In this document: piece by piece, positions 1,918-25,016 of the stretch
Layout of the letters: every line of letters starts with the position of its first letter
How positions within the stretch are numbered: the stretch's first letter is position 1
From: Gilvimarinus sp. DA14
Lineage (GTDB): Bacteria > Pseudomonadota > Gammaproteobacteria > Pseudomonadales > Cellvibrionaceae
Length of the DNA: 64,000 nucleotides
Direction of reading: 5' to 3'
Assembly: GCF_024204685.1 (NCBI RefSeq)
Contig: NZ_CP100350.1
Span: forward strand, 1,776,501 to 1,840,500
Notes under the pieces: generated by a model
Seen by the model: only the letters and a program-made list of their open reading frames with translations
What the model was told of the DNA's origin: nothing
Databases searched by the model: none
Made by a program: the position numbers and the translations under genes

Positions 1918-1931
1918 TAGAACCGGTAACA
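1918..1931. promoter_or_regulatory. possible LacI-type operator upstream of the DUF3450/TonB cluster
   Basis: The sequence TAGAACCGGTAACA has the palindromic core ACCGGT and a half-site GGTAACA. A related half-site, GGGTAACACTT, lies near 1890. LacI-family regulators of carbohydrate genes in gammaproteobacteria often bind sites resembling TGTTACCGGTAACA. The 276 bp gap between folA and the TonB cluster (1717-1992) has no other gene-like content. The call is a weak pattern match. Confidence 0.25.
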
Positions 1932-1992
1932 CCTGGTTATTTTTCAACCTGCATCAAGCGCTAACCTACACCAAACTTATACAATAAGATTA

Positions 1993-2505: not shown

Positions 2506-2543
2506 ATTCACATCACCCCCGCCCCAAACTCATCAACCCTATG

Positions 2544-3383: not shown

Positions 3384-4204
3384 GACTTTTTCTGCTCCGC
3401 CACGCTACTTTGCCCGGCAAGTTTCGGCAGCGCGTAAGCATATACCAGCAACGCCATGCCCAACGCCAACATTGGCAATGACAACAATTGACCTCGGGTC
3501 ACCCAACCATATAAGTCAAACTGAATATGCTGGTCGGGCTCGCGCGCAAACTCTGCAATAATTCTGAAACAGGCATAGCCAATTAAGAACACACCACTAA
3601 CGGCACCCGTAGGCCGCGGTTTGCGTGAAAACCAGTAAAGGAGAATAAACAACAACACCCCTTCCATGGCAAATTGATACAACTGTGATGGGTGGCGCGG
3701 CAATAGCTCCGGATCCTTGGGAAATACCATTGCCCACGGCCCCTCGGTCGGACGGCCCCACAACTCCTGGCCAATAAAATTACCCAGGCGGCCAAAGGCT
3801 AAACCTAATGGCACCACCGGGGCGACAAAATCAGTCAAGCGCAGATAGGGCAAATGAATGCGGTGGGCGTAGAACAGCATCGCCAGTAAAACGCCAATTA
3901 AACCGCCATGGAAAGACATTCCGCCTTCCCAGATGCGAAACAGCAGTAAAGGGTCGCGCATCCAGGCTTCAAAATTGTAAAACACCACGTATCCCAGGCG
4001 CCCGCCAAGCACCACCCCAAAGGCCCCGTAGGTAATCAGGTTCTCTACTTGCGCGCGACTGACCGGTGAGTCCTCACGCTTAGCTCTGTGCATGGCAATC
4101 AACCAAGCCGAGGCAAAGGCGAGCAGATACATGATGCCGTACCAATGCACTTGCAGCGGGCCTAGTGAGAGAGCAACGGGGTCGAAATCTGGGTGGGTTA
4201 ACAT
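3380..4204 (-). CDS. lgt: phosphatidylglycerol--prolipoprotein diacylglyceryl transferase
   Basis: 274 residues with about seven membrane segments. It transfers diacylglycerol to the lipobox Cys of prelipoproteins in the inner membrane. The Lgt signature [14 protein letters not shown] is at residues 138-151, and the HGG motif with the functionally important His is at residues 99-101. Several likely substrates are encoded in this window (lipoproteins at 7955, 10668, 21734, 31956 and 34430). It overlaps thyA by four bases and lies 71 bases after ptsP. Confidence 0.96.
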
Positions 4205-4275
4205 AGAGCGTGCGCCAGTTAAAAAGTGCGGGCAATCATACCACCGGCGTGTTCAAGGTAAAACCGCGTGACTGA

Positions 4276-6540
4276 CTACTCAGCCTCGGACAATGGCCGC
4301 ACTACACGTGTCACTCCGGCCTCCTGCAGAGTCTGCTCAACTCTGGCTCGCACTTCGGCGGCATCCGATAGGCGCATTACATCGTCCAGCAGTGTTTCAG
4401 CCTGCGCCAAGTTGACGGCGCGAATCACCGATTTAACCTTAGGTAGGTTAGTGGCGTTCATTGACAAGACATCGTAGCCCATCGCCATCAGAATAATGGC
4501 CGCCCCCGGGTCACCCGCAAATTCGCCGCATATACCCACGCTCACCCCCTGAGAGTGACCGTCCTGAACGACCTGCAGCAGAGCTCGCAGTACCGCCGGG
4601 TGAAAAGCTTGGTACAAGTCCGCTACCCGCGCATTGTTACGATCTACCGCCAACAAATACTGAGTCAGGTCGTTACTGCCTACGGATAAAAAATCCACCC
4701 GCGCGGCCAATTCACGGGCCTGGTAAACAGCAGCCGGTACTTCGATCATAACGCCGATAGGTGGCAGCTTAACGTCATAGTCTTCTTCTAAAAGCTCGTG
4801 ATAAGCACGATAAATAAGAGTTTTGGCCTCTTCCAACTCCTGCACCCCGCTGATCATGGGCAAGAGAATACGCAGGTTATCCAGCCCACTGCTGGCTTTT
4901 ATCATGGCGCGTATTTGCGCGAGAAAAATTTCCGGGTGATCCAGGGTTACTCGAATACCACGCCACCCCAAAAATGGATTGGCCTCTTCAATAGGGAAAT
5001 ACGGCAGCGCCTTATCGCCGCCGATATCCAGAGTGCGCATGGTCACCGTATGCGGCGCAAAAGCTTCCAACTGCTCGCGATAAATCACGCGCTGCTCCTC
5101 CTCCGATGGGAAGCGGTCGCGCAACAGAAAAGGCACTTCAGTGCGGTACAGGCCAACCCCTTCCGCGCCGCGCTCGAGTGAGCGCACCACATCAGTCATC
5201 AAGCCAGTGTTAACCCACAGAGGCAGGCGGTATTTATCTAAGGTCTCGCAAGGCAAATCTTTCAGCGCTTCGAGACCTTTAACCAGCTCCTCTTCTTCAC
5301 GGGCAATGGCGGTATAGTGTTTGGTCAGCTGAGCGCCCGGGTCGCTGTAAACGGCGCCCTTGTAACCGTCGACAATCACCGGACGGCCATCCATTCGGGT
5401 ATAGGGCAAATCCACTGCCCCCATTACCGTCGGGATACCCATTGCGCGCGCCAAGATAGCCACGTGCGAGTTGCTCGAACCCTGCACCGAAATCAAACCC
5501 GCAAGCTTGTGCTCTGGCACCTCGCCCAACATTGAGGCGGTCAGGTCATCGCCGATCAAGATGGTTTGGTCAGGATAGACTTGGCACTGCTGATTGGATT
5601 CTTGTAAATAAGCCAGAACCCGGCGCCCCAAATCGCGGACGTCGGTGGCCCGCTCGCGCAGGTAGGCATCACTCATGCTCGCGAAGGTGTTCTCGTGCTC
5701 GAGTATCACCTCGCTCCAGGCGTAGGGCGCGCACGTACCCTCACGGATTTTGGTGATGACCTCCCCTCCCAGGGAAGCGTCATCGAGCATTGCCAGGTAG
5801 GCGTCAAACAAAGCGCGCTCTTCACGGTTGAGGCGCTCCTCAAGCTGACGACCAAGCCCTTTGATATCGTCCCGCACCGCCATCAGGCAGCTCTGAAAAA
5901 ATTCGATCTCCGCCTCGACATCTTCGCACAGGCGGTAGGGAACGGATTTTAAATCGGCCAGTGGCGCAACCACCACCGCCTCCCCGATTGCGATACCCGG
6001 TGCGCCGGATACCCCGACAAACTTCGCCTGGGTGGCGGCATTGCCCACGGTCACCATGGTGCCGGTCGCCTCGGCGTGTGCGATTACCCCCGCCAGCTGG
6101 GCCGACATGGTAACCAGAAAGGCCTCATCCCCCTCATCGAAGCGTCGTTGCTCTATCTGCTGCACCACCAAAACGCCCAACACCTGACGATGATGGATAA
6201 TCGGCACACCGAGAAAAGAGCTATATCTCTCCTCTCCGGTCTCGGGAAAATATTGATAAGAGGGGTGGGATTCGGCGTCCTCAAGGTTGACGGGCTCTTC
6301 CCGTGAGACCACACGCCCCACTAGACCCTCTCCACGCCCGAGCCGAACCTGACCGACGGCCTCCTGCTTCAGGCCCTCGGTAGCCATCAACACATAGTCG
6401 CCATCCGGATCACGCAGGTAAACCGAGCACACCTGGGTGTGCATAGCTTGTTTGACCCGCGTAACAATAATGGCCAACGCCTTGTGCAGATCACGGGCGG
6501 AATTAACTTCCTGAACAATACTGCGCAGCGAATTAAGCAT
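4276..6540 (-). CDS. ptsP: phosphoenolpyruvate--protein phosphotransferase of the nitrogen PTS (EI-Ntr)
   Basis: 754 residues. Residues about 15-160 form a GAF domain; the rest is enzyme I. The phosphorylated His is in the segment GSSNSHVAILARAMGIP (His about 359). PEP-binding motifs include TLDIGGDKALPY and the C-terminal SVGSNDLTQYLLAVDRNN. It takes phosphate from PEP and passes it to NPr. I chose the start at 6540 (MLNSLRSIVQ) because PtsP proteins begin this way; an ATG three codons upstream (6549) is possible, and neither has a strong ribosome site. It follows rppH, an arrangement conserved in E. coli and Pseudomonas. Confidence 0.95.
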   Translation of the reverse strand: MLNSLRSIVQEVNSARDLHKALAIIVTRVKQAMHTQVCSVYLRDPDGDYVLMATEGLKQEAVGQVRLGRGEGLVGRVVSREEPVNLEDAESHPSYQYFPETGEERYSSFLGVPIIHHRQVLGVLVVQQIEQRRFDEGDEAFLVTMSAQLAGVIAHAEATGTMVTVGNAATQAKFVGVSGAPGIAIGEAVVVAPLADLKSVPYRLCEDVEAEIEFFQSCLMAVRDDIKGLGRQLEERLNREERALFDAYLAMLDDASLGGEVITKIREGTCAPYAWSEVILEHENTFASMSDAYLRERATDVRDLGRRVLAYLQESNQQCQVYPDQTILIGDDLTASMLGEVPEHKLAGLISVQGSSNSHVAILARAMGIPTVMGAVDLPYTRMDGRPVIVDGYKGAVYSDPGAQLTKHYTAIAREEEELVKGLEALKDLPCETLDKYRLPLWVNTGLMTDVVRSLERGAEGVGLYRTEVPFLLRDRFPSEEEQRVIYREQLEAFAPHTVTMRTLDIGGDKALPYFPIEEANPFLGWRGIRVTLDHPEIFLAQIRAMIKASSGLDNLRILLPMISGVQELEEAKTLIYRAYHELLEEDYDVKLPPIGVMIEVPAAVYQARELAARVDFLSVGSNDLTQYLLAVDRNNARVADLYQAFHPAVLRALLQVVQDGHSQGVSVGICGEFAGDPGAAIILMAMGYDVLSMNATNLPKVKSVIRAVNLAQAETLLDDVMRLSDAAEVRARVEQTLQEAGVTRVVRPLSEAE

Positions 6541-6569
6541 AGAGGCCATTAATCGTAATCAATCCCTAT

Positions 6570-6598
6570 CGCACAGCCCATCAACGCGTGGCTGTGCG
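6570..6598 (-). promoter_or_regulatory. hairpin spanning the rppH stop codon, ahead of ptsP
   Basis: CGCACAGCC and GGCTGTGCG form a perfect nine-pair stem around an 11-base loop. The rppH stop codon (6581-6583) lies in the loop. There is no U-run after it on the minus strand, so it is not a standard terminator. It could be an RNA processing or stabilising structure between rppH and ptsP; that role is inference. Confidence 0.5.
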
Positions 6599-7078
6599 CT
6601 CCAACTGACAATGAGTTGCTGCCAGCTCTTTCAAAGCCCGGCGATAAACGTCACGTTTAAACGCCACCACCTTCCCCAGCGGGTACCAATAACTGACCCA
6701 GCGCCAATCATCAAACTCGGCGCGCCCACCATTTTCCAGACAGACATTGGCTTCGTCGGATTTAAGACGCAGCAAAAACCACTTTTGTTTCTGACCAATG
6801 CACACAGGGTGTGAATGCTGGCGAATCAGGCGTTGCGGCAAACGGTATCTTAACCAGCCTCGGGTACAGCTTAAAATCTCGACGTCTTGCTCGGTTAGGC
6901 CTACCTCTTCACCCAACTCGCGATAGAGCGCCTGCTCGGGCGTCTCGTGAGGGTTAATCCCCCCTTGAGGAAACTGCCATGCATCCTGGCCACCCACACG
7001 CCGGGCCCAGAGCAGCTGCCCCTGATCATTGCTGAGCATAATACCCACGTTGGGGCGAAAGCCATCGGCATCTATCAC
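6581..7078 (-). CDS. rppH: RNA pyrophosphohydrolase
   Basis: 165 residues. It removes pyrophosphate from triphosphorylated mRNA 5' ends and so starts 5'-end-dependent decay. The Nudix box is complete at residues 39-61: [22 protein letters not shown]. The N-terminal FRPNVGIML and the [18 protein letters not shown] segment match RppH rather than general Nudix enzymes. It is the first gene of the rppH-ptsP-lgt-thyA-folA run, and a divergent HAD gene starts 212 bases away, so promoters for both directions must lie in 7079-7290. Confidence 0.95.
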
Positions 7079-7290
7079 GTTAAATTCCCGTTATATATTC
7101 TGTACTTAGCCTCGGTGTGGGCACACAGAGAAAAACTCCCCGCATTGTTCCACAAAACCTTATTGCACAGCAATTCGCTCTTTTGCTATCTGGAGGCCTT
7201 GCGCAAGCCACTATAGCAAATCTCGCCCGCGACACTGGCAGCTTGGCCAAGCCAAAGCTATGCTACGCACTTTTTATTCGGAGGCAGCCC

Positions 7291-7950
7291 GTGGCACTGG
7301 CCATTTTTGACCTAGACAACACCCTTATCGCCGGCGACAGCGACCACCTGTGGGGCGAGTTTTTGATCGCTGAAGGGCTGGTCGACGAGGCCAGCTACCG
7401 CCAGCAGAACGATCGTTTCTACCAGGATTACCAAGCGGCGCAACTGGATATCGACGCCTACCTTCGCTTTGCACTATCGCCCTTGCCCGAGCGAACCAGC
7501 GCCGAGTGGCAAAAAATCCATCAGCGCTATCTCGAACAAGCGATTAAGCCGCTGTTACTGCCCGCCGCCACGCGATTACTGCAGCAACACCGCGAGCGCG
7601 GTGACTACTTGCTGATCATTACTGCCACCAACGGGTTTATAACCCGCCCTATTGCCGAGCTTTTAGGGGTGGACGAAATTCTCGCCACCGACCCCGAAGT
7701 GATCGACAATTGCTATACGGGCAATTACCTCGGAACTCCCTGCTTTGGTGACGGCAAGGTCATCAATTTACAGCAGTGGCTGCAACACTCTACCCACACC
7801 CTTGCGGGCAGCTACTTTTACAGCGATTCGATCAACGATTTGCCCTTGCTGGAACAAGTAAGCAACCCAGTGGCGGTAAACCCTGACGAGCGACTGGAGG
7901 CCATTGCCGTCGAGCGCCAATGGCCCGTGCTGGACCTACGGAGCGAATAA
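7291..7950 (+). CDS. HAD-IB family hydrolase (phosphoserine phosphatase-like)
   Basis: 219 residues. The start is a GTG at 7291, chosen because GGAGG lies six bases upstream and the product then begins just before motif I, FDLDNTL (nucleophile Asp7, acid Asp9). Motif III/IV is YFYSDSINDLPLL near residue 175. The cap region between them fits subfamily IB, which includes SerB-like phosphatases and CicA. The substrate cannot be read from the sequence. A HAD-IB gene divergent from rppH is also found in Pseudomonas. The stop is followed four bases later by the next gene. Confidence 0.88.
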   Translation: MALAIFDLDNTLIAGDSDHLWGEFLIAEGLVDEASYRQQNDRFYQDYQAAQLDIDAYLRFALSPLPERTSAEWQKIHQRYLEQAIKPLLLPAATRLLQQHRERGDYLLIITATNGFITRPIAELLGVDEILATDPEVIDNCYTGNYLGTPCFGDGKVINLQQWLQHSTHTLAGSYFYSDSINDLPLLEQVSNPVAVNPDERLEAIAVERQWPVLDLRSE

Positions 7951-7954
7951 CCCC

Positions 7955-9013
7955 GTGCGCTTAGTATTGTTGTTTGCACTTTTGGCACTCATAGCCGGTT
8001 GTGAGCCGCAACAAAAGCCGGTGCCGGCCCCTGCTAGCACCGGTGCTTCCATTGAGGCACAGAGCGCAGCCGCAGAACAGCTAAGTGACCAGCTGTGGCA
8101 AATCGCCGCGCAGAGCATCGATAATAGCAACTTACAATGCGCACAACTCAGCCAGGCGGTACAACAACTGCTGCGAGCAACGGATGAGAAAAACCTGCAC
8201 GCCACTCAGCAAGCCTGGCTGGCATTGCACGGCTCTGTCATCGAGAACGCCACCGCCTTTTCACTGGCAACTGTAAGCCCGGATTTATTTGCACCATTGG
8301 CAGGGCAGATAAATCGCATTGACAGCCAACCTATTGCCCCCGGCTTTATCGACGCAGTCGCAGGCTATCCTTACAGCGGTTTAGTGCACGACTTTTCGAC
8401 GCCTATTAATCGCGCGACCTTAACCGATCAGCACCAGCTGACCGACGACAGCGAGGCGTTGCTGGGCCTGCATGTGTTGGAGTTTTTATTATTCGGCGAA
8501 AACGGCGAGCGGCAAGCCGAAGATTTTATCGCCACCGAGCAGGGCACAGATTCGCTCAGCCCGCAGCAAAGACCACAAAACCGGCGGCGCGATTTGCTCG
8601 CTCTGACATCGAAAATACTGTGTGACGATCTAGAAGCGCTAACCAACCTTTGGCGATCTAAACACTCGAGTATAAGCTCAGCCTACTACCAGCTGCCCCC
8701 ACTGGGGCGCCTGATGCTGTGGCGCGAGGCAATGGCAGCAGCAGTGAACACGCTAGCGCAAAACGAATGCGTTTTTGCGGCGGATCTATGCCAGAACCCA
8801 CAGAACCTGCTCAGCGGTCTAGAGGGTTTACTCGCTAGCACAAGACAATTCGACGCCAGCCTGAGCATGTCTGATGAGCAGCTTTACGCCATCATTAAAG
8901 ATCAGCTGGCAGAGGTGGCACAAAACAAACTGCCCGATACGGCTATTTTATTAGATTTTATTGCGCAAACACCCGAGCAAACACCGCCTTCAGATAGCAA
9001 GTCTCCGCAATAG
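7955..9013 (+). CDS. imelysin-like (peptidase M75 family) lipoprotein
   Basis: 352 residues. The GTG start at 7955 gives a short lipoprotein signal, VRLVLLFALLALIAGC, with lipidated Cys16. The hallmark GxHxxE motif is seen as GLHVLEFLLFGE at residues 171-182. Imelysin proteins are periplasmic or outer-membrane proteins linked to iron uptake, with a two-part helical fold; peptidase activity is not established for most. No TonB receptor or other imelysin gene is adjacent. Its last 56 bases overlap the convergent gene rlmI. Confidence 0.85.
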   Translation: MRLVLLFALLALIAGCEPQQKPVPAPASTGASIEAQSAAAEQLSDQLWQIAAQSIDNSNLQCAQLSQAVQQLLRATDEKNLHATQQAWLALHGSVIENATAFSLATVSPDLFAPLAGQINRIDSQPIAPGFIDAVAGYPYSGLVHDFSTPINRATLTDQHQLTDDSEALLGLHVLEFLLFGENGERQAEDFIATEQGTDSLSPQQRPQNRRRDLLALTSKILCDDLEALTNLWRSKHSSISSAYYQLPPLGRLMLWREAMAAAVNTLAQNECVFAADLCQNPQNLLSGLEGLLASTRQFDASLSMSDEQLYAIIKDQLAEVAQNKLPDTAILLDFIAQTPEQTPPSDSKSPQ

Positions 9014-10148
9014 CCGGATGAATCGGGTGGTCCGCGCCCTGCCCTTGACGCGCAATCACCCGCGCATCGCGACCCAACTTGTGCGCACTGCCCCGAACAA
9101 TATCCAGCAAGGTCTCTTCAGCCAAATGCATAGAGCAGGAAGCCGACACCAAGAGCCCGCCCGGATTCAGCAGCTTTAAACCCAGCTCATTAATATGCCG
9201 ATAGGCTGCCTCGCCGGCCTTTTGGTCCTTGCGCTTTTTGATAAACGCTGGCGGGTCGAGCACCACTGCATCGAACTTTTCACCCGCCGCAATTAGCTGT
9301 TTGAGCACATCAATGGCTTTCCCCGTTCGCACGCTCACTGTGTCTGCTACATGGTTCAGCTCAGCATTGCGCAGTACCTGGTCGGTAGCCGCTTGGGAAG
9401 CATCGACACAGACAACCTCGCGCGCGCCGGCAACCGCAGTTTGAATGCCCCAACCGCCAATATAAGAAAATACATCCAACACCCGCGACCCACCGGCCCA
9501 CTGGTTAAGCAGCTTACGTCCCTGTCGGTGATCGTAAAACCAGCCGGTTTTTTGTCCCGTCTGCACGGGCGCCAAAAAGCGTGCTCCATTTTCCACCAGC
9601 TCCACTTCGGCGGGCACTTCCCCATAAGCGACCTGGGTATAGCGGGTTAAGCCTTCCAGCTCGCGGGCACTATGATCATTGGCAAGCAACACCCCGCGAG
9701 GGCTAAGCAAATCTACCAGCGCCTGTACCAGAGACTCTTTTAACTGCTCCATACCCGCACTGGCAATCTGCACAATCAAGTAATCACCGAAACGATCCAC
9801 CACTACCCCCGGCAACCAATCACTGTCGCCGTACACCAAACGATAATATGGCTCTTTGAATGCGAGTTGACGCAACTGCAGCGCCAGCTCCAGCCGCCGA
9901 TAGAGAAGGTCGTACGCCAGAGGTTGGGCGGTGCGGCTCACCAAGCGGGCGCAGATTAAATTGGCAGGATTAACCTGGGCCACCCCCAACAACTGCTCTT
10001 TTGCACTAAACACCTGAACTTGCGACCCCGGCTCAAGCGCTTTTAACGGCGAGCGTTTTACATCCACTTCATTGCTATAAATCCACAAGTGACCACGCTT
10101 GAGACGGCGGTCCATCTGCGGTTTGAGGTACAAACTGGCGAGTGACAT
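8958..10148 (-). CDS. rlmI: 23S rRNA (cytosine-C5)-methyltransferase, RlmI-like
   Basis: 396 residues, the same length as E. coli RlmI. The N-terminal PUA domain (residues about 1-75) includes KRGHLWIYSNEV; the Rossmann methyltransferase domain shows the SAM motif VLDVFSYIGGWG and the motif VVLDPPAFIKKRKD; the conserved SASCSMHL supplies the Cys of m5C enzymes. It methylates a cytosine (C1962 in E. coli) of 23S rRNA. The start MSLASLYLKP at 10148 is preferred over an ATG ten codons upstream. The 3' end overlaps the imelysin gene tail to tail. Confidence 0.92.
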   Translation of the reverse strand: MSLASLYLKPQMDRRLKRGHLWIYSNEVDVKRSPLKALEPGSQVQVFSAKEQLLGVAQVNPANLICARLVSRTAQPLAYDLLYRRLELALQLRQLAFKEPYYRLVYGDSDWLPGVVVDRFGDYLIVQIASAGMEQLKESLVQALVDLLSPRGVLLANDHSARELEGLTRYTQVAYGEVPAEVELVENGARFLAPVQTGQKTGWFYDHRQGRKLLNQWAGGSRVLDVFSYIGGWGIQTAVAGAREVVCVDASQAATDQVLRNAELNHVADTVSVRTGKAIDVLKQLIAAGEKFDAVVLDPPAFIKKRKDQKAGEAAYRHINELGLKLLNPGGLLVSASCSMHLAEETLLDIVRGSAHKLGRDARVIARQGQGADHPIHPAIAETCYLKAVFARVFAQ

Positions 10149-10242
10149 GGCGAAAGCTCCGGAAGAAAGGGGCGGCATTATACCGCAAGCGCGGGACGCT
10201 ACCGAAAAAGCTTAAGCAGGGCGAACCTGATAGTAGATAGGA

Positions 10243-10668
10243 TTATTCTTCCGGCAAATTGTCCAACGGCAGACTGGTGATATCACCGTAAGCTTGCATA
10301 TCATCAGCGCTGGCCCCTTCGCGGCACTCCCCGCGCAGCCACTGCACATAGTTGCTCAGGCGAAAATCCAGCTCCAAAAAACCATCGCGACAGTAGCCAG
10401 TGGCCGCCACCACATATCCTGTCCGCGCCTTAAGTTTTTTATAGTCCCGCTTATCGGGGGCGCGTGTGGGGCCACGGCGGATATTGGCCTTGCGGTCCAT
10501 CTCCGGTGACAACCCGACACGGTAAATAAACTGCTTGCTGCTATTAGGCAAAATGCGCACACTCAGTGTTTCGGGCAGATCGCCATAGGAAGGTGTACTG
10601 GAGCAGCCGGCCAAGGCCGCACCCAGCACCGCCATTAACATGAGTCTTTTTAGATTCGCTTTATTCAT
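10243..10668 (-). CDS. hypothetical lipoprotein
   Basis: 141 residues. Signal and lipobox are clear (MLMAVLGAALAGC, lipidated Cys22). The mature part is basic in the middle (ANIRRGPTRAPDKRDYKKLKART) and has two further Cys residues (in TGYCRDG and LRGECREG) that could form a disulfide in the periplasm. I do not recognise the family. It lies 51 bases downstream of the GH5 gene on the same strand, so it may be co-transcribed with it, although a hairpin sits between them. Confidence 0.75.
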   Translation of the reverse strand: MNKANLKRLMLMAVLGAALAGCSSTPSYGDLPETLSVRILPNSSKQFIYRVGLSPEMDRKANIRRGPTRAPDKRDYKKLKARTGYVVAATGYCRDGFLELDFRLSNYVQWLRGECREGASADDMQAYGDITSLPLDNLPEE

Positions 10669-10672
10669 AAAC

Positions 10673-10696
10673 CCGCTCAGGCCCCAATCCGAGCGG
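10673..10696 (-). promoter_or_regulatory. hairpin over the ribosome-binding region of the 10668 lipoprotein gene
   Basis: CCGCTC and GAGCGG pair around a 12-base loop four bases before the start codon of the lipoprotein gene. The GAGCGG arm is also the only Shine-Dalgarno-like sequence there, so folding would hide it. Whether this has a role is unknown. Confidence 0.35.
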
Positions 10697-10719
10697 CCTA
10701 GTCTAGCGGCGCAGAATGC

Positions 10720-12195
10720 TTAAGGCAAAACCACCTGGCGAACATTGGAGGGGGCAGACTCGCCACTCTCGTTACTCGCAATTACCCGGTAATAATAGGT
10801 TTCGCCCGGCACCAGCTCAGAGGTGTCTTTAGATATTGCCTGCTCTAATGGGCGATACTCTTGAATGCCGTCGGAGACTTTATCGGCAATGACCTTCCAG
10901 GGGCCAGCTTCCGACGTAGCGCGCTCTATGCGGTAATAGCGTCCCAAAGGAGCACCCATAAAGTTGATGCGCTCGCGCGGGTCGACGATTGGGCGCAAAA
11001 CTGGAGGTTCGGGTGCGGGCAGTGGCGCAGCCGCATCCAGGCCCGCCATTTGCGCCTGAGCCTTGCGTACTAAATCTACCACCGCTTGCTCTTCATTGGG
11101 TTCGCCCTCGGGAAAACCCGGCAGGTGATAGCTGTAATGGCCGGTGTATTCTTTATGCCAGTAAAAACCGCCATTGTGGCGGTGTCCGCGAAAGCCCCAA
11201 ATAAACGCGCCCGCTGCACGTGCTCCTTTATGCTCGGTGTTTACTGCCGCCTGCATGATCGCATTCAAGCCTTTGGCATCGCGCAAGCCGAACTCACCGA
11301 TCAAATACACTTTCTGTGCATCAATTGCCTGTAAGTCTTTGCGCACCTGTTCGGGGTTGTTGTTCTCATTGGTGGTATAAAAGTGGTTAGAAATAATATC
11401 CACGTTGGGATCAGTTAAGGAAAACTGATTGATCTTCAAATAAGTACCATCAATCACCAGATGATTGCTATCGAGTGATTTAATCAAAGCCGCCGTTTTA
11501 CGCACAAATGGCTCTGTTGATTCTTTTAGCTCGTTGCCGGTCTCCCAGGCCATAATGGCCTTTTCATCTTTATACTGTCGCCCGGTGATAGTGTTAGTGC
11601 GGTTAATCACCTGACGAACAATGGCGTGATAGGCGGCGAAGGTTTTACTGTCCGTCGCGTAAAAATCGTCTGCCGTTTCATCGTAAAACGCGGCTAGCTG
11701 CTCGCGCCCACCCCACCATTTCCAATGATCAATAAACGGCAAAATCAACCGCAAGCCGTGTTTCTCCGCCAGTGCAATCATGCGATCGTAATGCACCATG
11801 GCAGCCTCGTTTAGCCGCGGCATGCCGCCGGGCTCGGCGGGTGCAAGTATATGGGTTTCGCGACCACACGCCTCGTCGTAGGGCGTCTCAATGGATAAGA
11901 CATAAACCCGCATCGCTTTGTGGCCGCTTCTTACCAGCGCCTTGATCCAGTTTTCCTGCTCGTCGGCCGTAGGCCAGCGAAAATACTGGCCCCAGCCACG
12001 GGGGTCAGCTTCACATACACCGCGCGCGTCGTCTTCAATGCGATGCAGCTCAGGGGCATGAATTCCGGCAAAACGGAACTCTTGATCACCATCCAGTAAA
12101 CGATGCCCATCGCGGGTGATAAAGCTGTCGAACGCCAGGACTTGGGCACAGAAGAACGAAAGAGAAAATAGGGAAAGTCGCTGCAGTAAATTCAT
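10720..12195 (-). CDS. secreted glycoside hydrolase family 5 (endo-mannanase-like)
   Basis: 491 residues with a signal peptide (about 1-21, ending AQVLA). The GH5 TIM-barrel spans about 25-370. The acid/base is Glu222 in AWETGNEL and the nucleophile is Glu301 in YLIGEFGL; HFYTTNE (about 271-277) carries the conserved His-x-Tyr. Residues about 395-491 look like a fibronectin type III module (YYRVIASNESGESAPSN). The form of the catalytic motifs resembles beta-mannanases, but the exact substrate is not decided by the sequence. It would act outside the cytoplasm on plant or algal polysaccharide. The 216 bp upstream gap contains a heptamer repeat. Confidence 0.85.
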   Translation of the reverse strand: MNLLQRLSLFSLSFFCAQVLAFDSFITRDGHRLLDGDQEFRFAGIHAPELHRIEDDARGVCEADPRGWGQYFRWPTADEQENWIKALVRSGHKAMRVYVLSIETPYDEACGRETHILAPAEPGGMPRLNEAAMVHYDRMIALAEKHGLRLILPFIDHWKWWGGREQLAAFYDETADDFYATDSKTFAAYHAIVRQVINRTNTITGRQYKDEKAIMAWETGNELKESTEPFVRKTAALIKSLDSNHLVIDGTYLKINQFSLTDPNVDIISNHFYTTNENNNPEQVRKDLQAIDAQKVYLIGEFGLRDAKGLNAIMQAAVNTEHKGARAAGAFIWGFRGHRHNGGFYWHKEYTGHYSYHLPGFPEGEPNEEQAVVDLVRKAQAQMAGLDAAAPLPAPEPPVLRPIVDPRERINFMGAPLGRYYRIERATSEAGPWKVIADKVSDGIQEYRPLEQAISKDTSELVPGETYYYRVIASNESGESAPSNVRQVVLP

Positions 12196-12299
12196 AGGGC
12201 ACCAGTGTAGCTACGCGAAATGTTGCGATTGTTGTTATCAAAACTGGCGCAAGCTTAGCAGCTTTTGGGGTCCATGTAACCCGTTACAGTGCAGGCAGG

Positions 12300-12369
12300 G
12301 TACGGGGTACGGGGTACGGGGTACGGGGTACGGGGTACGGGGTACGGGGTACGGGGTACGGGGTACGGA
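12300..12369. repeat. tandem heptamer repeat (GTACGGG)n
   Basis: Nine perfect copies of GTACGGG run from 12300 to 12362, followed by a diverged tenth (GTACGGA). The array lies between the 3' end of the ALDH gene (12412, minus strand) and the start of the GH5 gene (12195, minus strand), so it is 5' of the GH5 transcript. A reading frame through it encodes only a seven-residue periodic peptide and is not a gene. Confidence 0.97.
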
Positions 12370-12411
12370 CAGAATGTCCTTTTCCCGTACTCCGTCAACC
12401 GCACTCGCGCT

Positions 12412-13773
12412 CTATTTCATCCACACCTGTTTGGCGTTAACAAATTCACGAATACCATGGGGGCCTAGCTCGCGGCCAAAACCCGAGCGCTTAACGCCAC
12501 CACTGGGCAGCCGCGGGTCTGTTTTCACTATGCCGTTAATGGCGACTTGGCCGGTTTCTATTACGCCAGCCCATTGCTCGGCCTTATCGACCTGCGCCGT
12601 CCAAATAGCCGCTCCCAAGCCGTACTCGGTTTGGTTGGCAAGCGCGAGCGCTTCGTCGATATCGGCAACGGGTGTCAAAGCCATTACCGGGCCAAAAGTC
12701 TCTTCGCAAAAAGCTGGCATCTCTGGATGGACATCGGCAAGTAAGGTCGGAGGATAAAAATAACCTTCACCCGCTGGTAGTTCGCCGCCCAACAGACAAC
12801 TGGCGCCTTTACTCACCGAGTCGGCAACCTGACGGTGCAGATTATGCCGTAAGTCTTCCCGGGCGATAGGGCCAATATCGGTATCCGGCAACTGGGGGTC
12901 TCCCATCTTGAGTTTGGCCAGCCGCTCTTCCACCATCACGGTAAATTCACTGTACACCGACTTCTCGACCAATATTCGTTTGGCCGCAATGCACGACTGC
13001 CCGGCGTTGATTATGCGCGACAACACAGCAATATCAGCGGCGGTAGCTAAATCGGCATCGGCCATAACAATACAGGGGTCGGAGCCGCCCAACTCAAGCA
13101 CGCAGTGTTTAATTTCGCTGCCCGCTACCGCCGCCACCTTAGCGCCGGCATTGGCTGAACCGGTAAAAGACACAGCGGCAATATCCGGGTGGCGAATCGC
13201 ACTCTCGGCCAGCTCGGTGGTGATGGGCAGATTCACCATAATATTCTCCGGCGCTCCGGCCGCGACAAAAGCCTCGGCTATTGCCTGAGCACAGGCTGGC
13301 ACATTGGGATCGTGCTTCATAACGCAGGTATTGCCCGCCATGAGTGCCGGCGCCAAATAGCGAAAAGCCAACCAAAGCGGCGCATTCCAGGGCAGAATAC
13401 CGAGCAAAGTGCCGAGCGGCTGATAGCAAACATAACTCGTGGATGCATCCGAATCGATATAATCAGGCTGCAAAAACTTCTCTGCATTTTGCGCATAAAA
13501 CTCGGCGCACCAGGCGGCTTTTTCGACTTCCGGTCCGCCTTCTTTCACTGGTTTCCCCATCTCCTGGGCCATCAGTTTTGCCAGATGATCCTTGCGGCTG
13601 CGCAACTCGGCCGCCACCGCATTCAGCACTTTGGCGCGGCCGGCAAAGCCTGTGTCGCGCCAGGCCGAAAAAGCCTCTTTTGCAGCGGCAATCTGTTCTG
13701 CCATCTGCTGTTCATTCAGCGAGGGGTATTCTGCGATGGTGGCTCCGGTATAGGGATTATTTGCCGTTAACAT
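12412..13773 (-). CDS. doeC: NAD(P)-dependent aldehyde dehydrogenase, probable aspartate-semialdehyde dehydrogenase of ectoine degradation (DoeC/GabD-like)
   Basis: 453 residues, the length of GabD/Sad-type aldehyde dehydrogenases. The catalytic Cys is Cys261 in AGQSCIAAKR and the general base is Glu227 in LELGGSDPCI; GILPWNAPLWLAFR and VSFTGSANAG are the cofactor-binding motifs. On sequence alone it would be called succinate-semialdehyde dehydrogenase. Its place as last gene of a doeB2-doeD-doeA operon, eight bases after doeA and with AGGAGG ahead of its start, makes oxidation of aspartate semialdehyde to aspartate the likely job. Confidence 0.8.
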   Translation of the reverse strand: MLTANNPYTGATIAEYPSLNEQQMAEQIAAAKEAFSAWRDTGFAGRAKVLNAVAAELRSRKDHLAKLMAQEMGKPVKEGGPEVEKAAWCAEFYAQNAEKFLQPDYIDSDASTSYVCYQPLGTLLGILPWNAPLWLAFRYLAPALMAGNTCVMKHDPNVPACAQAIAEAFVAAGAPENIMVNLPITTELAESAIRHPDIAAVSFTGSANAGAKVAAVAGSEIKHCVLELGGSDPCIVMADADLATAADIAVLSRIINAGQSCIAAKRILVEKSVYSEFTVMVEERLAKLKMGDPQLPDTDIGPIAREDLRHNLHRQVADSVSKGASCLLGGELPAGEGYFYPPTLLADVHPEMPAFCEETFGPVMALTPVADIDEALALANQTEYGLGAAIWTAQVDKAEQWAGVIETGQVAINGIVKTDPRLPSGGVKRSGFGRELGPHGIREFVNAKQVWMK

Positions 13774-13781
13774 ACTGCCTC

Positions 13782-15050
13782 CTAGGATTGACTCTCGGAT
13801 TCTTCGGCTTGCTCCTGCTTAGCTTTTTTATCGGCTTTTGCCGATTTTTTCCGGTGCTCGTCAAGCTTGGCAACGTCGGCGCCCTGATCGGCTTTTACGG
13901 TAAAATCGCGATCCATAGTAAAGAAAGACTCGCAGCCCTCAGAGGTAATATGGATAGTATCTGAGATACCACAGGTCTTATCGCCATCCACGCCCCACAT
14001 CCAGGGAATAATATGGAAGGTCATGCCTTCTTTTAACACCGTCGATTCACCCTGCTTTAAGCTCACCATGTAACCTTCATCCCAGCTGGGCGGAAAAGCG
14101 ATGCCAATTGCATAGCCAGAGCGAGTAATTAAACGTGCACCTACATCGTTATCGGAAATGATGTTGCGAATTAAATTATCCGCATCCGACACTGTCATAC
14201 CCGGCTGAAAGTAGTCGTGCACGACTGTCAGCGCCTGCTTCATTTTTTCCTGCGCTTTGTACATCGAATCGGTTAGATCACCCAGCACTACCGTGCGCAT
14301 CATGGCGGTGTGATAGCGGCGAAAACAGCCGCCCACTTCCAAAAATACGTGTTCACCCGGTTGTACCGTGCGCCCCTCCCAGGTGGCGTGGCCGATCATG
14401 GTACGCGGGCCGGAGGTAACATAGGGCATAACCGCTGGCGGCTCGCCGCCGGCGCGGAACATGCCCGCACTGATTGCAGCGCCAATTTCATTTTCGGTGG
14501 CACCTGCCATACAGGCCTCAATACCCGCCTGCATACCTTTCTCGGTAGCCACGGCCGCTTTACGCATAATGTCAATTTCCAGCGGCGACTTACACACACG
14601 CCCTTCTTCGACAATGCCAAAGCAATCGAGAAGCTTGCCATCGGTTAAAGTTGTGTGAATAAAGTCCTGCTGATAAGCAGGGAAGAAATAACTGTTACGC
14701 TCGTAACCAATACGTTTATTAGCGAGGCCAAATTCGCGCAGTGCATCCACCAACATTTGAATCGCGCCGCCAGTATCTGGGTAAGGCCGGGTCCGTTCGA
14801 CCCAGGTACGAGCAAAAATATTGGACTCTTCCATGGCCCGGGTGATCATAAAAGGCTCTTGTTCTAGCGGTACTACTAAAGCCTGAAAAAACGAGTAACC
14901 GGTGGTCTGATAATCCGTTAAATACATAATATTTTCCGGATCGGTGATCACTACCGCGTCCAGATGGCGCTCGGCAATTCGAGTACGCAACTCGCCCAAA
15001 CGACGCTCGTACTCCTCAAATGGAAATGTCATATCATCGCGTTGGATCAT
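13782..15050 (-). CDS. doeA: ectoine hydrolase DoeA (M24/creatinase-like)
   Basis: 422 residues. It opens the ectoine ring to N-alpha-acetyl-L-2,4-diaminobutyrate. The N-terminal creatinase-like domain (about 8-160) includes ITDPENIMYLTDYQTTGYSF; the C-terminal pita-bread domain (about 165-395) has TSGPRTMIGHATWEG, VFLEVGGCFRRYHTAMMRT and a final EGCESFFT. As in other DoeA/creatinase enzymes, the full metal-binding set of methionine aminopeptidases is not kept. A Lys/Glu-rich tail (about 400-422) extends it past the usual length of about 400. The start overlaps the doeD stop by four bases. Confidence 0.88.
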   Translation of the reverse strand: MIQRDDMTFPFEEYERRLGELRTRIAERHLDAVVITDPENIMYLTDYQTTGYSFFQALVVPLEQEPFMITRAMEESNIFARTWVERTRPYPDTGGAIQMLVDALREFGLANKRIGYERNSYFFPAYQQDFIHTTLTDGKLLDCFGIVEEGRVCKSPLEIDIMRKAAVATEKGMQAGIEACMAGATENEIGAAISAGMFRAGGEPPAVMPYVTSGPRTMIGHATWEGRTVQPGEHVFLEVGGCFRRYHTAMMRTVVLGDLTDSMYKAQEKMKQALTVVHDYFQPGMTVSDADNLIRNIISDNDVGARLITRSGYAIGIAFPPSWDEGYMVSLKQGESTVLKEGMTFHIIPWMWGVDGDKTCGISDTIHITSEGCESFFTMDRDFTVKADQGADVAKLDEHRKKSAKADKKAKQEQAEESESQS

Positions 15051-16321
15051 GCGGCAGCCTCCATAACTTTCTCTGCGTGGCGCACAAAGGTTTCCAGACC
15101 AGCCTCTAAATCTTCCTCGGGAATGGTAAGCGGCGGAATCAGTTTAACCACTCGACCACCCGAGCCGCAGGCGGCCACTAGCAAACCATCGGCAAAACAT
15201 TCAGTGACGATTTTTTTGGCATTTTCTCCGGAGCCGACATCGACCCCCAGCATCATGCCTTTCCCGCGCACCTGCACTTTGGCAAACTTATTCTCCAGCG
15301 GCGATACTTTTTTCAGCATGGTCTCGCCTTTGTCGCGAACCCCCTGCAGGAAATTTTCATCTTCAAAATAAGCAATAGCTTCATTACCAGCAACGAAACT
15401 TAGAGCCTGGCCGCGGAAGGTGCCTGTGTGCTCGCCGGGATTCCAATGTTTGTCAACCTCGGGTTTGACCAAGTTCATAGCAATCGGCGTGCCCCAACCG
15501 CCCAAACCTTTCGCCAGGCAAATTACATCCGGATCGATATCATAATCGTCAAAGCTAAAGAATGAACCGGTACGTCCACATCCAGCTTGAATATCATCCA
15601 AAATCAACAGAGCACCAACTTCGCGAGCCAATGCCTGCAAGTCTTGCAGCCATTTTTTATCGGCCACATTCACCCCGCCTTCGGCCTGAATGGTCTCGAC
15701 CAAAAACGCCGCAGGCGGTAAAAAGCCACTGGAACCGTCACGATAAAGTGCGCGCAACTGTTCAATCACCTCTTTGCCATCGCTTAGAGGGTTATCGCTG
15801 GTGTGCTTATCAGCACCGAAAGGAAAGTGCGACACGTGAGTTAAGGGAACCCCAGCAGCGCCACGAAACGCTTGGTTAGCAGTGCAAGCCAAAGCCCCTA
15901 AAGTCATGCCGTGAAAACCGTGGGTAAATGAGACAATGTCAGTGCGACCGGTAGCACGGCGAGCAATTTTTAATGCAGCTTCGACTGCATTCGTGCCGGT
16001 GGGGCCCATAAACTGCATTTTATGGGGCATACCGCGAGGCTCAAGGATGGTTTTAGTAAAGCTCTCCATGAACGTCTGTTTCGCTGTGCTATGCATATCC
16101 AGGTGGTGGGTCACCCCGTCTCTCTCAATGTACTCAATAACCGCTCGCTTCATGCGCTCGTTGTTATGGCCAAAATTCAGCACCCCGGCGCCGGCAAAAA
16201 AATCGATATACTCATTTCCTTGGTCATCTTTCTGGCGGGCGTTGCTGGCCGTGTCAAAAACCACGGGATACACGCGGCAATAGCCACGAATCTCAGACTC
16301 ACGCTGTTCAAATATGCTCAT
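15047..16321 (-). CDS. doeD: diaminobutyrate aminotransferase of ectoine degradation (DoeD, EctB-like)
   Basis: 424 residues, class III PLP aminotransferase. The Schiff-base Lys is Lys271 in CLAKGLGGWG and the PLP-contacting Asp is in LLILDDIQAGCGRTG (about 238-252). The N-terminus IDFFAGAGVLNFGHNN is typical of the EctB/DoeD group. EctB runs the reaction toward ectoine, DoeD the reverse, from 2,4-diaminobutyrate to aspartate semialdehyde. No ectA or ectC is nearby and all neighbours are degradative, so I call it DoeD. AGGAGA lies ahead of the start; the gene is 49 bases after doeB2. Confidence 0.87.
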   Translation of the reverse strand: MSIFEQRESEIRGYCRVYPVVFDTASNARQKDDQGNEYIDFFAGAGVLNFGHNNERMKRAVIEYIERDGVTHHLDMHSTAKQTFMESFTKTILEPRGMPHKMQFMGPTGTNAVEAALKIARRATGRTDIVSFTHGFHGMTLGALACTANQAFRGAAGVPLTHVSHFPFGADKHTSDNPLSDGKEVIEQLRALYRDGSSGFLPPAAFLVETIQAEGGVNVADKKWLQDLQALAREVGALLILDDIQAGCGRTGSFFSFDDYDIDPDVICLAKGLGGWGTPIAMNLVKPEVDKHWNPGEHTGTFRGQALSFVAGNEAIAYFEDENFLQGVRDKGETMLKKVSPLENKFAKVQVRGKGMMLGVDVGSGENAKKIVTECFADGLLVAACGSGGRVVKLIPPLTIPEEDLEAGLETFVRHAEKVMEAAA

Positions 16322-16370
16322 ATAGCTTTCTCCTAAGTCACGCGTGTCGCAGTGTTTTATGGGTTTTCAA

Positions 16371-17534
16371 TCAATCGGGTAAAGGGGCTCCTACAAGTTG
16401 GCTGTATAACCGCGTGACCGGCTCTAGCAGCCGATCGTTAAAATCGTAATAGGGACTGTGGCAGGGATGTCCATGATGAGTTCCGCCATCATTAGCACCG
16501 ATCAGCGCAAAAGCGCCGGGAATTTCCCGCAGGTAATAGCTAAAGTCTTCCGATGCCATGATAGGCACCAAACTTTTGCAATCCAGTGACTCTTTGTCAT
16601 AGAGTGCCGTCCAAGCGTTGCGGACATTCGCCGCCGCAGACGCATGATTAATAGTGGCGTGGTAGCGAGGCATAATCTTAACCTTGCAACCAACATCATA
16701 GCTGGCCGCCACCTGGTGACTGATCGATTCGATTAAATGGTTCACCTGATCGCGGGCCTGGGTGTCGGATACTCGGATACTACCGCCAATTACGGCGCGC
16801 TCGGGAATCACGGTAGGGGCACTGTGAGCGTCGATAGAAGTTATGCTCACTACCGTTGCTTGCTGCGGTGCGAGACGCCGGCTTACGATTTGCTGTAAAG
16901 CTTGAACCAGCGCACTGGCAGCCAGTATTGGATCGCGGCACAGCTCGGGCTGACTGGCGTGTCCACCCACGCCCTGCAGCTCGATCTCAAAAGTGCCGTT
17001 ACCGCACATAACAATGCCATCTGGGCACAGCAGTTTGCCAAACTCAATAGCCGGCCAATTGTGCCAGCCGTAAATACAGTCCACACTCTCAAGTGCGCCA
17101 TCGTTAATCATTTCGCGCGCACCATGGCCGCCCTCCTCTGCGGGCTGAAACACCAAGGTGACCGGGCCGTCTAATTGAGACTCGACGTGTTTCAACCAAC
17201 CGGCACTTGCGAGCAGAGCGGCTGTATGGCCATCGTGACCGCAGGCGTGCATGCAACCTGCGCGGTTGGACTTCCAGGGGCTGGATGTTTGTTCGTTGAT
17301 TGGCAGCGCGTCTATGTCACCGCGCAGCGCTATGTGCTTACCTTTACCTTCAGGATTGAGTCTAGCCAGAGTACCTGTATTAGCGCAGGCACGCCAAGGT
17401 ATGGACAATGCATCAAGCTGCTGACGGATAGCAGCGGCGGTATCTGTCTCCTGCCATCCGAGCTCAGGCTCGCTGTGAAGTTGACGCCGCATCTGCTGCG
17501 CCTCGCTCATCAGTTGCTGCCAGTACTGCGTCAT
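16371..17534 (-). CDS. doeB2: M20 family N-acetyl-diaminobutyrate deacetylase (DoeB2-like)
   Basis: 387 residues, M20D amidohydrolase. Metal ligands are visible in HACGHDGHTA (Cys98, His100) and in FQPAEEGGHGA. The dimerisation lid contains GVGGHASQPE. Most enzymes of this subfamily remove acyl groups from amino acids. In the standard ectoine pathway deacetylation is done by DoeB of the aspartoacylase type; no such gene is here, and this M20 enzyme holds its place at the head of the operon, which fits the alternative deacetylase known as DoeB2. Substrate is therefore inferred from context. GGGGATTT precedes the ATG. Confidence 0.82.
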   Translation of the reverse strand: MTQYWQQLMSEAQQMRRQLHSEPELGWQETDTAAAIRQQLDALSIPWRACANTGTLARLNPEGKGKHIALRGDIDALPINEQTSSPWKSNRAGCMHACGHDGHTAALLASAGWLKHVESQLDGPVTLVFQPAEEGGHGAREMINDGALESVDCIYGWHNWPAIEFGKLLCPDGIVMCGNGTFEIELQGVGGHASQPELCRDPILAASALVQALQQIVSRRLAPQQATVVSITSIDAHSAPTVIPERAVIGGSIRVSDTQARDQVNHLIESISHQVAASYDVGCKVKIMPRYHATINHASAAANVRNAWTALYDKESLDCKSLVPIMASEDFSYYLREIPGAFALIGANDGGTHHGHPCHSPYYDFNDRLLEPVTRLYSQLVGAPLPD

Positions 17535-24131: not shown

Positions 24132-24535
24132 TATGAATACACCTTTTGCCGCCGTAGCAGTCTCATCATTATTTTTCAGGCCCCAGTATCGCGCAGGCAC
24201 CCAATCTTTACACCCTAGACTGGACACTACCCCCAAAAGACAACGTTGTCAATTTAATTTGCAGGTATGGAGAATCTGCCATCCAAGACAGCATTTTGCA
24301 GATCTCGTCCTGAAGCGGCTCAGAGTAATGAGGCCTATGAGCTGCCCGTAGGGCGAGGGCCAAAGACCGATGGCAGAGAAGGCAGCCCGGGCTGTAGCCC
24401 GAGTGAAGTCTCCCAATAGCTCAACCGGTATTGGGCCCCTGCGGGCTTCGCTGCGCTTGTTGCTAAATGCGACGCATTTGGTCGAACCGCCATACAGATC
24501 TGATTCGATTTCACCCGCAGCCAACTTGCCGATAC

Positions 24536-24570
24536 AAAAAAGGCCCGATCCGAAGACCGAGCCTTTTATT
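24536..24570 (-). terminator. terminator of repeat unit A
   Basis: On the minus strand AAGGCTCGGTC, loop TTCG and GATCGGGCCTT are followed by a T-run. The same structure is repeated in units B and C, showing duplication of the tRNA-Phe terminator. The plus strand also ends in CCTTTTATTTT, so it could work both ways. Confidence 0.85.
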
Positions 24571-24575
24571 TTGTA

Positions 24576-24673
24576 TGGTGCCCAGAGGCGGACAACGCGG
24601 CAGGACGCCGCGTTGGACAGCTCTGCTGCCCGAAGGGCGAGAGCCATGGACGGCTCTCGTCAATCGAACCACC
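24576..24673 (-). pseudogene. tRNA-Phe 3' remnant A, T-arm interrupted by a 70 bp insert
   Basis: Positions 24576-24592 match the last 17 bases of the tRNA-Phe gene including CCA, and 24663-24673 match the next 11 bases of its T-arm. In the intact gene these two pieces touch; here 70 bp (24593-24662) lie between them. The insert folds into hairpins 24593-24615 (nine pairs, loop AGGAC) and 24638-24659 (eight pairs, loop ATGGAC). No 5' half of the tRNA is present, so this is not a functional tRNA. Confidence 0.85.
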
Positions 24674-24716
24674 AAAAAAGCTGGTTCGATTTCGCCCGCA
24701 CCCAACCTGCGGATAC

Positions 24717-24750
24717 AAAAAAGGCCCGATCCGAAGACCGAGCCTTTTAA
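24717..24750 (-). terminator. terminator of repeat unit B
   Basis: Same UUCG-loop stem and T-run as the terminators at 24536 and 24901; the only differences from unit A are in the bases following the stem. Confidence 0.85.
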
Positions 24751-24756
24751 TTTGTA

Positions 24757-24855
24757 TGGTGCCCAGAGGCGGACAACGCGGCAGGACGCCACGCTGGACA
24801 GCTCTGCTACCCGAAAGGGCGAGGGGCAAGGACGCCCCGAGTCAATCGAACCACC
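24757..24855 (-). pseudogene. tRNA-Phe 3' remnant B, T-arm interrupted by a 71 bp insert
   Basis: 24757-24773 and 24845-24855 match the 3' end and T-arm of tRNA-Phe and flank a 71 bp insert (24774-24844) about 80 percent like that of remnant A by eye. Its last hairpin (24823-24838, GGGGC/GCCCC, loop AAGGAC) differs from that of A by two compensatory base-pair changes, which supports a folded product. Confidence 0.85.
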
Positions 24856-24900
24856 ATAAAAAGCTGGTTCGATTTCGCCCGCACTCGCCCCTGCAGATAC

Positions 24901-24934
24901 AAAAAAGGCCCGATCCGAAGACCGAGCCTTTTAA
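24901..24934 (-). terminator. terminator of the intact tRNA-Phe gene (unit C)
   Basis: A UUCG-loop hairpin with T-run begins seven bases after the CCA end of tRNA-Phe on the minus strand. It is the functional terminator of the tRNA and the probable parent of the copies at 24536 and 24717. Confidence 0.9.
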
Positions 24935-24940
24935 TTTGTA

Positions 24941-25016
24941 TGGTGCCCAGAGGCGGAATCGAACCACCGACACGAGGATTTTCAATCCACTGCTCTACCG
25001 ACTGAGCTATCTGGGC
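24941..25016 (-). tRNA. tRNA-Phe (GAA)
   Basis: 76 bases with encoded CCA. On the minus strand the acceptor stem GCCCAGA pairs with TCTGGGC, the D-arm is GCTCAGTCGGTAGAGC, the anticodon arm shows GGATTGAAAATCC with anticodon GAA, and the T-arm contains GGTTCGATTCC. It is the only intact tRNA gene seen in the window. Confidence 0.97.

Follow-up and report, generated by a model that had tools for sequence, protein, structure and literature searches.

The tRNA-Phe(gaa) gene of Gilvimarinus sp. DA14 is intact, and next to it pieces of its 3' end recur in tandem, with two pieces that touch in the gene itself held apart by a hairpin-rich insert. This arrangement raises the question of what kind of element the array is and how the insert came to lie within a T-arm sequence. 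Our analysis of the 64,000-nucleotide stretch of DNA that holds the locus (the window), and of related loci in other genomes, identifies the array as one of tRNA-linked repeats (TLRs, RtT-type), a known class, here with an unusual inverted core. We put a probability of roughly three in four on the fuller reading of this TLR array, in which each unit consists of a terminator-like hairpin, a T-arm split by the core and a tail taken from the host RNA gene, and the core is, or formerly was, a small non-autonomous insertion module.

The array beside tRNA-Phe

Both full units close with TCCGCCTCTGGGCACCA, which repeats the final 17 nt of tRNA-Phe exactly, and both carry the T-arm half GGTGGTTCGAT; the two pieces are contiguous in the tRNA and lie 71 nt (unit 1) and 70 nt (unit 2) apart in the array (Table 1). 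On the minus strand, unit 1 runs from a terminator-like hairpin through an inverted T-arm copy, the T-arm half and the inverted core to the 17-nt tail. A first-pass annotation had described two units of 181 and 184 bp, an older diverged unit and a parent end at the real tRNA-Phe, and this agrees with TRF (period 181, 2.6 copies, 24482-24957, 90% matches), with the unit spacings of 181 and 184 from the repeat search, and with ARAGORN and Rfam. Its 17-base tail, split by an insert from an 11-base T-arm half, was likewise recovered as an exact copy in both full units, with the insert size corrected to 70-71 nt. The inverted T-arm copy that it placed in each full unit is present in both (15 nt, 93%, repeat search), and the further terminator that it saw next to this inverted copy corresponds to a hairpin with a T-run, read and folded here, which follows tRNA-Phe as well as each of both tails and which we call terminator-like. 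Such hairpins, again as read and folded, flank the window units on both sides, as they would in a read-through small RNA. The tail copy beat all 200 of 200 shuffles of the 300 nt downstream, as did the inverted copy, so that chance is excluded for both.

The older unit consists, as judged by eye, of a terminator-like hairpin, a T-arm remnant and a forward core piece followed by a reverse one. R1, a covariance model built here that is wider than the Rfam RtT model, matches it weakly (24327-24368 +, 14.5 bits). Its counterpart in G. algae (G002, locus L006) is longer and has an intact tail, and there a forward core and a reverse core appear by eye to stand in tandem. Elsewhere the window holds two perfect heptanucleotide repeats, (GGGTACG) x10 at 12298-12368 and (CTGAACG) x22 at 56910-57062.

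Table 1. Features of the tRNA-Phe array (window positions) and interrupted tRNA copies (positions within the tRNA)
Feature	Position	Strand	Basis or flank identity
tRNA-Phe(gaa), intact, host RNA gene of the array	24941..25016	-	ARAGORN and Rfam
TLR unit 1, 184 nt	24757..24940	-	repeat search, reading of minus strand, tail comparison, folding
TLR unit 2, 181 nt	24576..24756	-	repeat search, reading of minus strand, tail comparison, folding
Terminator-like hairpin and T-run, directly 3' of tRNA CCA	24898..24940	-	read, then folded
Terminator-like hairpin, further copies	~24714-24756, ~24533-24575	-	read, then folded
Inverted T-arm copy, unit 1	24865..24879	-	repeat search
Inverted T-arm copy, unit 2	24682-24696	-	repeat search
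T-arm 5' half GGTGGTTCGAT, unit 1	24845..24855	-	read from sequence
T-arm 5' half GGTGGTTCGAT, unit 2	24663-24673	-	read from sequence
Core (insert) of unit 1, 71 nt	24774..24844	+ (canonical orientation opposite to tRNA)	R1 match 24744-24856 +, 30.7 bits
Core (insert) of unit 2, 70 nt	24593..24662	+ (inverted relative to tRNA)	R1 match 24563-24674 +, 33.9 bits
17-nt tail, unit 1	24757..24773	-	exact copy of tRNA-Phe 3' end
17-nt tail, unit 2	24576..24592	-	exact copy of tRNA-Phe 3' end
Older, decayed unit	~24250..24575	-	read from minus strand, folded, weak R1 match
Interrupted tRNA-Lys (L177)	29-58, 66 nt core, 59-76		flanks 100%
Interrupted tRNA-Lys (L140; G. algae, G002)	1-58, 75 nt core, 58-70		flanks 100%
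Interrupted tRNA-Ser(cga), D-loop (L157)	1-22, 77 nt core, 23-33		flanks 100%
Interrupted tRNA-Ser(gct), D-loop (L100)	1-22, 83 nt core, 25-73		flanks 100%
Interrupted tRNA-Arg (L172)	13-59, 75 nt core, 59-70		95.7% (13-59)
Interrupted tRNA-Ala (L078; DA14)	1-56, ~72 nt core, 58-69		1-47 at 100%, 1-56 at 94.6%
Interrupted tRNA-Met (L041; DA14)	8-36 and 42-58, 81 nt core, 61-77		96.6% (8-36)
Interrupted tRNA-Tyr (L159, 1471-1631)	12-35 and 40-64, 80 nt core, 75-84		100% (12-35 and 40-64)

A known class and its relatives

According to PMC8144298, TLRs were described in 1978 (Egan and Landy) and later by Rudd (1999), and E. coli has 22 of them at ten loci, with 18-19 bp of the 3' end identical to that of the upstream tRNA or rRNA gene. 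The Phe units share these traits. They lie immediately downstream of a tRNA gene, with 5S cases elsewhere in the genome, their 3' ends repeat that of the upstream gene (17 nt exact at Phe and 17-19 in relatives, compared with the published 18-19), and the locus holds two full units and one decayed unit, within the class range of one to five. Like the window units, E. coli TLRs are hairpin-rich, sit directly 3' of a stable RNA gene whose 3' end they copy, number one to five per locus and also use 5S hosts. Unlike them, DA14 has inverted cores at Phe and Leu, tmRNA among its hosts, a terminator-like hairpin that opens each unit, and cores also inside tRNA loops. At tyrT-tyrV of E. coli K-12, four Rfam RtT matches show the part order of the window, each ending in the tRNA-Tyr 3' end. 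The earlier annotation described the units correctly, but it missed both the known class, the tRNA-linked repeats of E. coli, and the inversion of the core.

The relatives of the window units share with RtT (RF00391, tyrT) the helix order, GGTTCGAC and CCCGNAGGG, a closing stem formed from the tRNA tail and a unit of ~178 nt, whereas the window units themselves escape Rfam's model and have their core on the opposite strand. Rfam RtT gave no match in the window, where its gathering score was not reached, and none in the DA14 genome at E<=0.001 under the stricter filters of the large search. An RtT-like closing stem with core hairpins was not found on the tRNA strand, where R1 scores at best 8.1 bits, over unit 2; on the opposite strand it scores 33.9 and 30.7 bits over the window units. 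According to further accounts, Asn and Lys tRNA genes of Actinobacillus pleuropneumoniae have RtT RNAs upstream of them (PMC4986893), and RtT contains a tandem GA motif (PMC7657543). Two papers connect RtT with REPs in enterobacteria, one through rtT-like elements within BIMEs (PMC2965389) and the other by listing a REP in rttR (PMC12306157). Three E. coli TLRs, rrA, rrB and rrF, each follow a 5S gene and lie between two terminators; they are transcribed and processed, and Hfq and CsrA bind them (PMC8144298). The window units, too, lie between two terminator-like hairpins after a stable RNA gene; they differ in that the host of rrA/rrB/rrF is 5S (DA14 also has two such units).

The first-pass annotation had set aside a CRISPR and an att-site pair, and neither was found in the array; nor does the window contain a group I or II intron or another listed RNA, only tRNA reaching the Rfam gathering score, while the best sub-threshold matches are to MicC, over the terminator-like hairpins. 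Among the 20 of 70 matching records listed from a phage collection, matches span at most the first 115 of the 767 query bases, mainly the tRNA itself. In G. gilvus (G004, L036, ~1145-16530) tRNA-Phe is separated from its TLR array by a genomic island that encodes a tyrosine integrase (Pfam) and has genes that by eye resemble type I restriction-modification; at this, the sole island seen at tRNA-Phe, we did not find a repeat that bounds the island together with an island end that equals the insert.

The same kind of unit stands at many other stable RNA genes; the architecture is not special to the tRNA-Phe locus. In the DA14 genome (3.96 Mb, one contig, 40 tRNA matches), an exact 17-nt repeat of the gene's own 3' end starts 143-193 nt past the CCA at seven of the 40 tRNA loci (Phe, two Asp loci, Ser(gct), Ser(gga), Leu(taa) and Met), and an eighth (Leu) keeps 11 nt. 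The tmRNA has a downstream unit with an exact tail, and a similar unit follows each of two 5S genes, where the copy of the 5S end is by eye shorter (~10 nt). R1 finds 17 matches in DA14 (E<=0.01), 15 of them within 1 kb of a stable RNA gene; the remaining two lie 1.8 kb from tmRNA and 6.7 kb from tRNA-Ala, the latter probably displaced by an island. The tRNA-Ala locus (L078, L268; DA14 75.5-86 kb) comprises an interrupted copy upstream, the intact gene, an int-alpA RNA and TLR units ~6.7 kb downstream, as though an island had parted the units from the tRNA. At 1266294 (L035), a tRNA-Met 3' fragment, a terminator and TLR-like sequence lie 91 kb from the tRNA-Met at 1175303, and this fragment is the probable far end of a large island.

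Searches for the insert in the genome, in relatives and at other tRNA genes returned many relatives through R1, at several other RNA genes. The Rfam RtT model has matches at E<=0.001 in 50 of 274 genomes from the class (18 above the cut-off). R1 finds all eight Gilvimarinus genomes (E<=0.01), 60 of 145 genomes of the order (E<=1e-4) and 73 of 299 genomes in a sample of the phylum, 41 of these 73 from one family outside the class. From CCA to CCA, units have a median length of 178 (range 117-238, n=76).

Outside the genus, a first set of 107 R1 matches in 85 loci included 92 with a tRNA or tmRNA in range, and for all 92 the host lay upstream on the same strand, with none downstream on the other. 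Their tails match that of their own host exactly over 17 nt in 60 cases and with 1-2 mismatches in 11, that is 71 of 107 with <=2 mismatches. In a second set, made up of 58 weaker matches in 40 regions of the order, 15 tails are exact and seven have 1-2 mismatches, and none of the matches is antisense. The matches that lack a good tail despite a tRNA or tmRNA number 21 of 107 and 17 of 58, and those with neither RNA in range 15 and 19. Because R1 was trained on sense units and both sets hold its better matches, sense units with tails are favoured in them. Hosts with <=2 mismatches include Ser, Tyr, Gln, Asp, Lys, Arg, Glu, Phe, Met, Pro, Val and tmRNA. Within the genus, 39 matches divide into 27 sense (16 exact tails, five with 1-2 mismatches, six with more), eight antisense (four at Phe and two at Leu with tails, two at Gly without) and four without a tRNA. 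By a simple rule, a terminator-like hairpin lies between host and unit at 27 of 57 loci outside the genus and 16 of 19 inside. Across 89 units, the four letters that precede GTTC agree with the own host's T-stem at 191 of 356 positions, compared with 145.8 when permuted (0/2000 as high), a comparison uncorrected for kinship. Continuous gene conversion of the tail was considered and rejected, since a one-base difference separates the G006 tail from its own tRNA.

The core at Phe and Leu of DA14 has the opposite orientation to nearly all relatives examined. When the inserts were compared directly with 92 sense cores, that of unit 2 had the better score in inverted form against 90, that of unit 1 against 82 (six the other way), and those of the two Leu(taa) units against 84 and 86, whereas four sense units of DA14, used as a control, score higher unflipped against 88, 88, 89 and 91 of 91. 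The Phe units of G. algae (G002) and G006 share the inversion (90 of 92 in both cases); in G. xylanilyticus (G007) the first tRNA-Phe unit is in sense (68.3 bits, 3-mismatch tail). DA14 also has single antisense R1 matches near tmRNA and one 5S gene. At L269 (~732-836), downstream of 5S, an inverted Leu-type core lies by eye inside a long terminator-like inverted repeat, AATAAAACACCCCACCTGG / CCAGGTGGGGTGTTTTATT, and on this visual reading a core has here entered another hairpin loop.

Cores inside tRNA loops

Cores also stand in the T- or D-loops of tRNA copies that lie beside intact ones, which is new here. The literature searched (titles and beginnings of abstracts) makes no mention of TLR cores within tRNA loops, with the originals of 1978, 1991, 1994 and 1999 (Egan and Landy 1978, Bosl and Kersten 1991 and 1994, Rudd 1999) falling outside that search. 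Among 204 stretches upstream of matches, nine outside ARAGORN tRNAs resemble a tRNA body; eight of these, at seven loci, are interrupted copies, and the ninth (L249) is an ordinary tRNA that the mask had not covered. Each interrupted copy was compared with the intact copy in its own locus, and the Met unit was found separately (Table 1). At the tRNA-Ser(gct) locus L100 the T-loop holds another core, to the right of which just 6 nt of tRNA remain. Most interrupted copies are incomplete, ending at position 70 (L140), 70 (L172), 69 (L078) or 33 (L157). In the tRNA-Tyr copy of L159, the anticodon is replaced by 22 nt with a small hairpin.

An orthologous empty site, a check that the first-pass annotation had proposed, is available for one of these copies. 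The tRNA-Lys copy of G. algae is interrupted at 58/59, whereas at this place each of the seven other Gilvimarinus genomes carries two complete tRNA-Lys copies, with a variant T-arm in G004 and G006; both flanks align to DA14 (72.9 and 75.1%). By eye, G003 (G. chinensis) and G001 (G. agarilyticus) carry a standard unit between the second tRNA-Lys and its terminator, which is absent in the other genomes. There are two such tRNA-Lys pairs in G005 (L290, L293), separated by 6.4 kb and identical across the part compared. Copy numbers, also put forward for comparison, do differ: at tRNA-Ser(gct), unit number and terminator type vary by eye among congeners, G001 reading N there.

With relatives inside loops beside intact tRNA copies and one orthologous empty site, the earlier proposal that a structured element entered the T-arm and was then amplified is a good reading. 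The relatives in T-loops and D-loops lend support to the entry; for tRNA-Phe itself, where invasion is not seen, we infer the order of insertion followed by amplification.

Origin of the units

A core would enter a tRNA copy just after GGTTCGA in the T-loop (58/59) or GGYTGA in the D-loop, leaving little or no target duplication, and would be tolerated, or survive, where an intact copy of the RNA gene remains adjacent. The invaded copy would then decay from its 5' side, which would give a TLR, and keep its 3' tail, which would pair with an upstream complement; unit number would shift through unequal recombination between units. Any RNA product would be expected to arise by read-through between two terminators, by analogy with rrA/rrB/rrF of E. 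coli. The Met and Tyr units look like intermediates, in which the invaded copy is losing its 5' body. Some T-loop interruptions could instead have arisen by deletion from the GGTTC of a tRNA to that of a unit, an origin that does not suit the D-loop cases.

The units could also be kept for the job of a transcript, for example Hfq or CsrA binding after read-through and processing, with mobility incidental, and we regard such a functional small RNA as a serious possibility that will nonetheless probably prove wrong. In line with it, outside the genus every match with a tRNA or tmRNA in range is in sense, rrA/rrB/rrF are transcribed, processed and bound as described above (PMC8144298), and closing stem and hairpins covary. 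In an alignment of 24 units (A1; 18 from other genomes of the class, two from E. coli and four from DA14, with 18 of 30 RtT loci kept and 12 left out as gapped, truncated or divergent), 81.2% of cells pair compared with 69.8% in shuffled alignments (0/500 as high), and 106 cells changed on both sides compared with a shuffled mean of 40.2 (0/500), in a control that leaves kinship in; two weaker covariation measures were reached by 4/500 and 7/500 shuffles. In the closing stem, eight of 11 pairs change on both sides across the 24 units. Against such a small RNA, however, speak the inverted Phe and Leu cores and the terminator-like hairpin that, by the simple rule, precedes 16 of 19 first units in the genus. 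PMC8144298 describes E. coli TLRs as without known function, an early starvation claim having been withdrawn, and as showing no clear phenotype, and it gives the other 19 TLRs CsrA scores below 0.01. Wobble pairs (G.U against A.C), counted to tell selection on RNA from selection on DNA, give a mixed picture. Single internal mismatches are 16 GU, 7 AC and 38 other in the units, compared with 61, 0 and 2 in tRNA stems, and shuffled cores give 30, 30 and 350 (G.U, A.C, other). In symmetric-scoring hairpins, 14 G.U against 30 A.C speak against a sense RNA, while the A1 helices have 37 against 28; over 92 units the counts are 90 against 112 (closing stem 59 against 79), in a test whose tRNA control failed (223 against 205).

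A simple tandem duplication of the tRNA 3' end, produced through slippage or unequal exchange and with no mobile core, would account for units that stand in tandem, for tails that end at CCA and for a unit number and terminator type that, by eye, vary at one locus among congeners. It was already disfavoured and seems to us improbable, because a single genome has similar cores at several kinds of RNA gene, each with the tail of its own host, and because D-/T-loop insertions and inverted cores are not products of slippage. We would give equally little credence to an origin from islands or prophages that had entered the 3' ends of tRNA genes and, once their body was deleted, left att repeats behind. 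The tails do run from T-loop to CCA, like att repeats, and G. gilvus has a tyrosine-integrase island at tRNA-Phe itself; yet the right end of that island is by eye unlike the core, units also follow 5S and tmRNA, their length range is narrow, the multi-hairpin core is conserved, and cores lie in D-loops.

If the core is an insertion module, as we favour, its nature can be stated more boldly, in terms that we advance tentatively and expect to be wrong somewhat more often than right. The core may be its own kind of mobile element, 65-100 nt long, protein-free and multi-hairpin, which would enter D- and T-loops of tRNAs, as well as the corresponding parts of tmRNA and 5S, in both orientations and with little or no target duplication, so that TLR arrays of Pseudomonadota would be scars kept beside an intact copy. 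Where the neighbouring tRNA pieces continue without loss, as in tRNA-Lys of L177 (29-58 and 59-76), the module might even be removable from the RNA. REP/BIME sequences with RAYT transposases are likewise short and hairpin-rich and are thought to be moved by a Y1 enzyme (PMC2817692), whereas the cores of DA14 are tied to RNA genes. Y1 transposases occur in seven of the eight genus genomes, and at 14 Y1_Tnp loci of the genus (~1.5 kb on either side for most) we found no R1 match of the kind expected for REP-like flanking; an origin through RAYT/Y1 was rejected, as no core lies near these 14 loci.

TLRs have been known since 1978, according to PMC8144298, without an account of their nature or of why each carries its own host's 3' end. 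Insertions within tRNA loops, one of them with an orthologous empty site, make the origin of TLRs testable. If the cores are mobile, they would constitute a targeted family of mini-elements in the stable RNA genes of many Pseudomonadota, one that annotation has largely missed.
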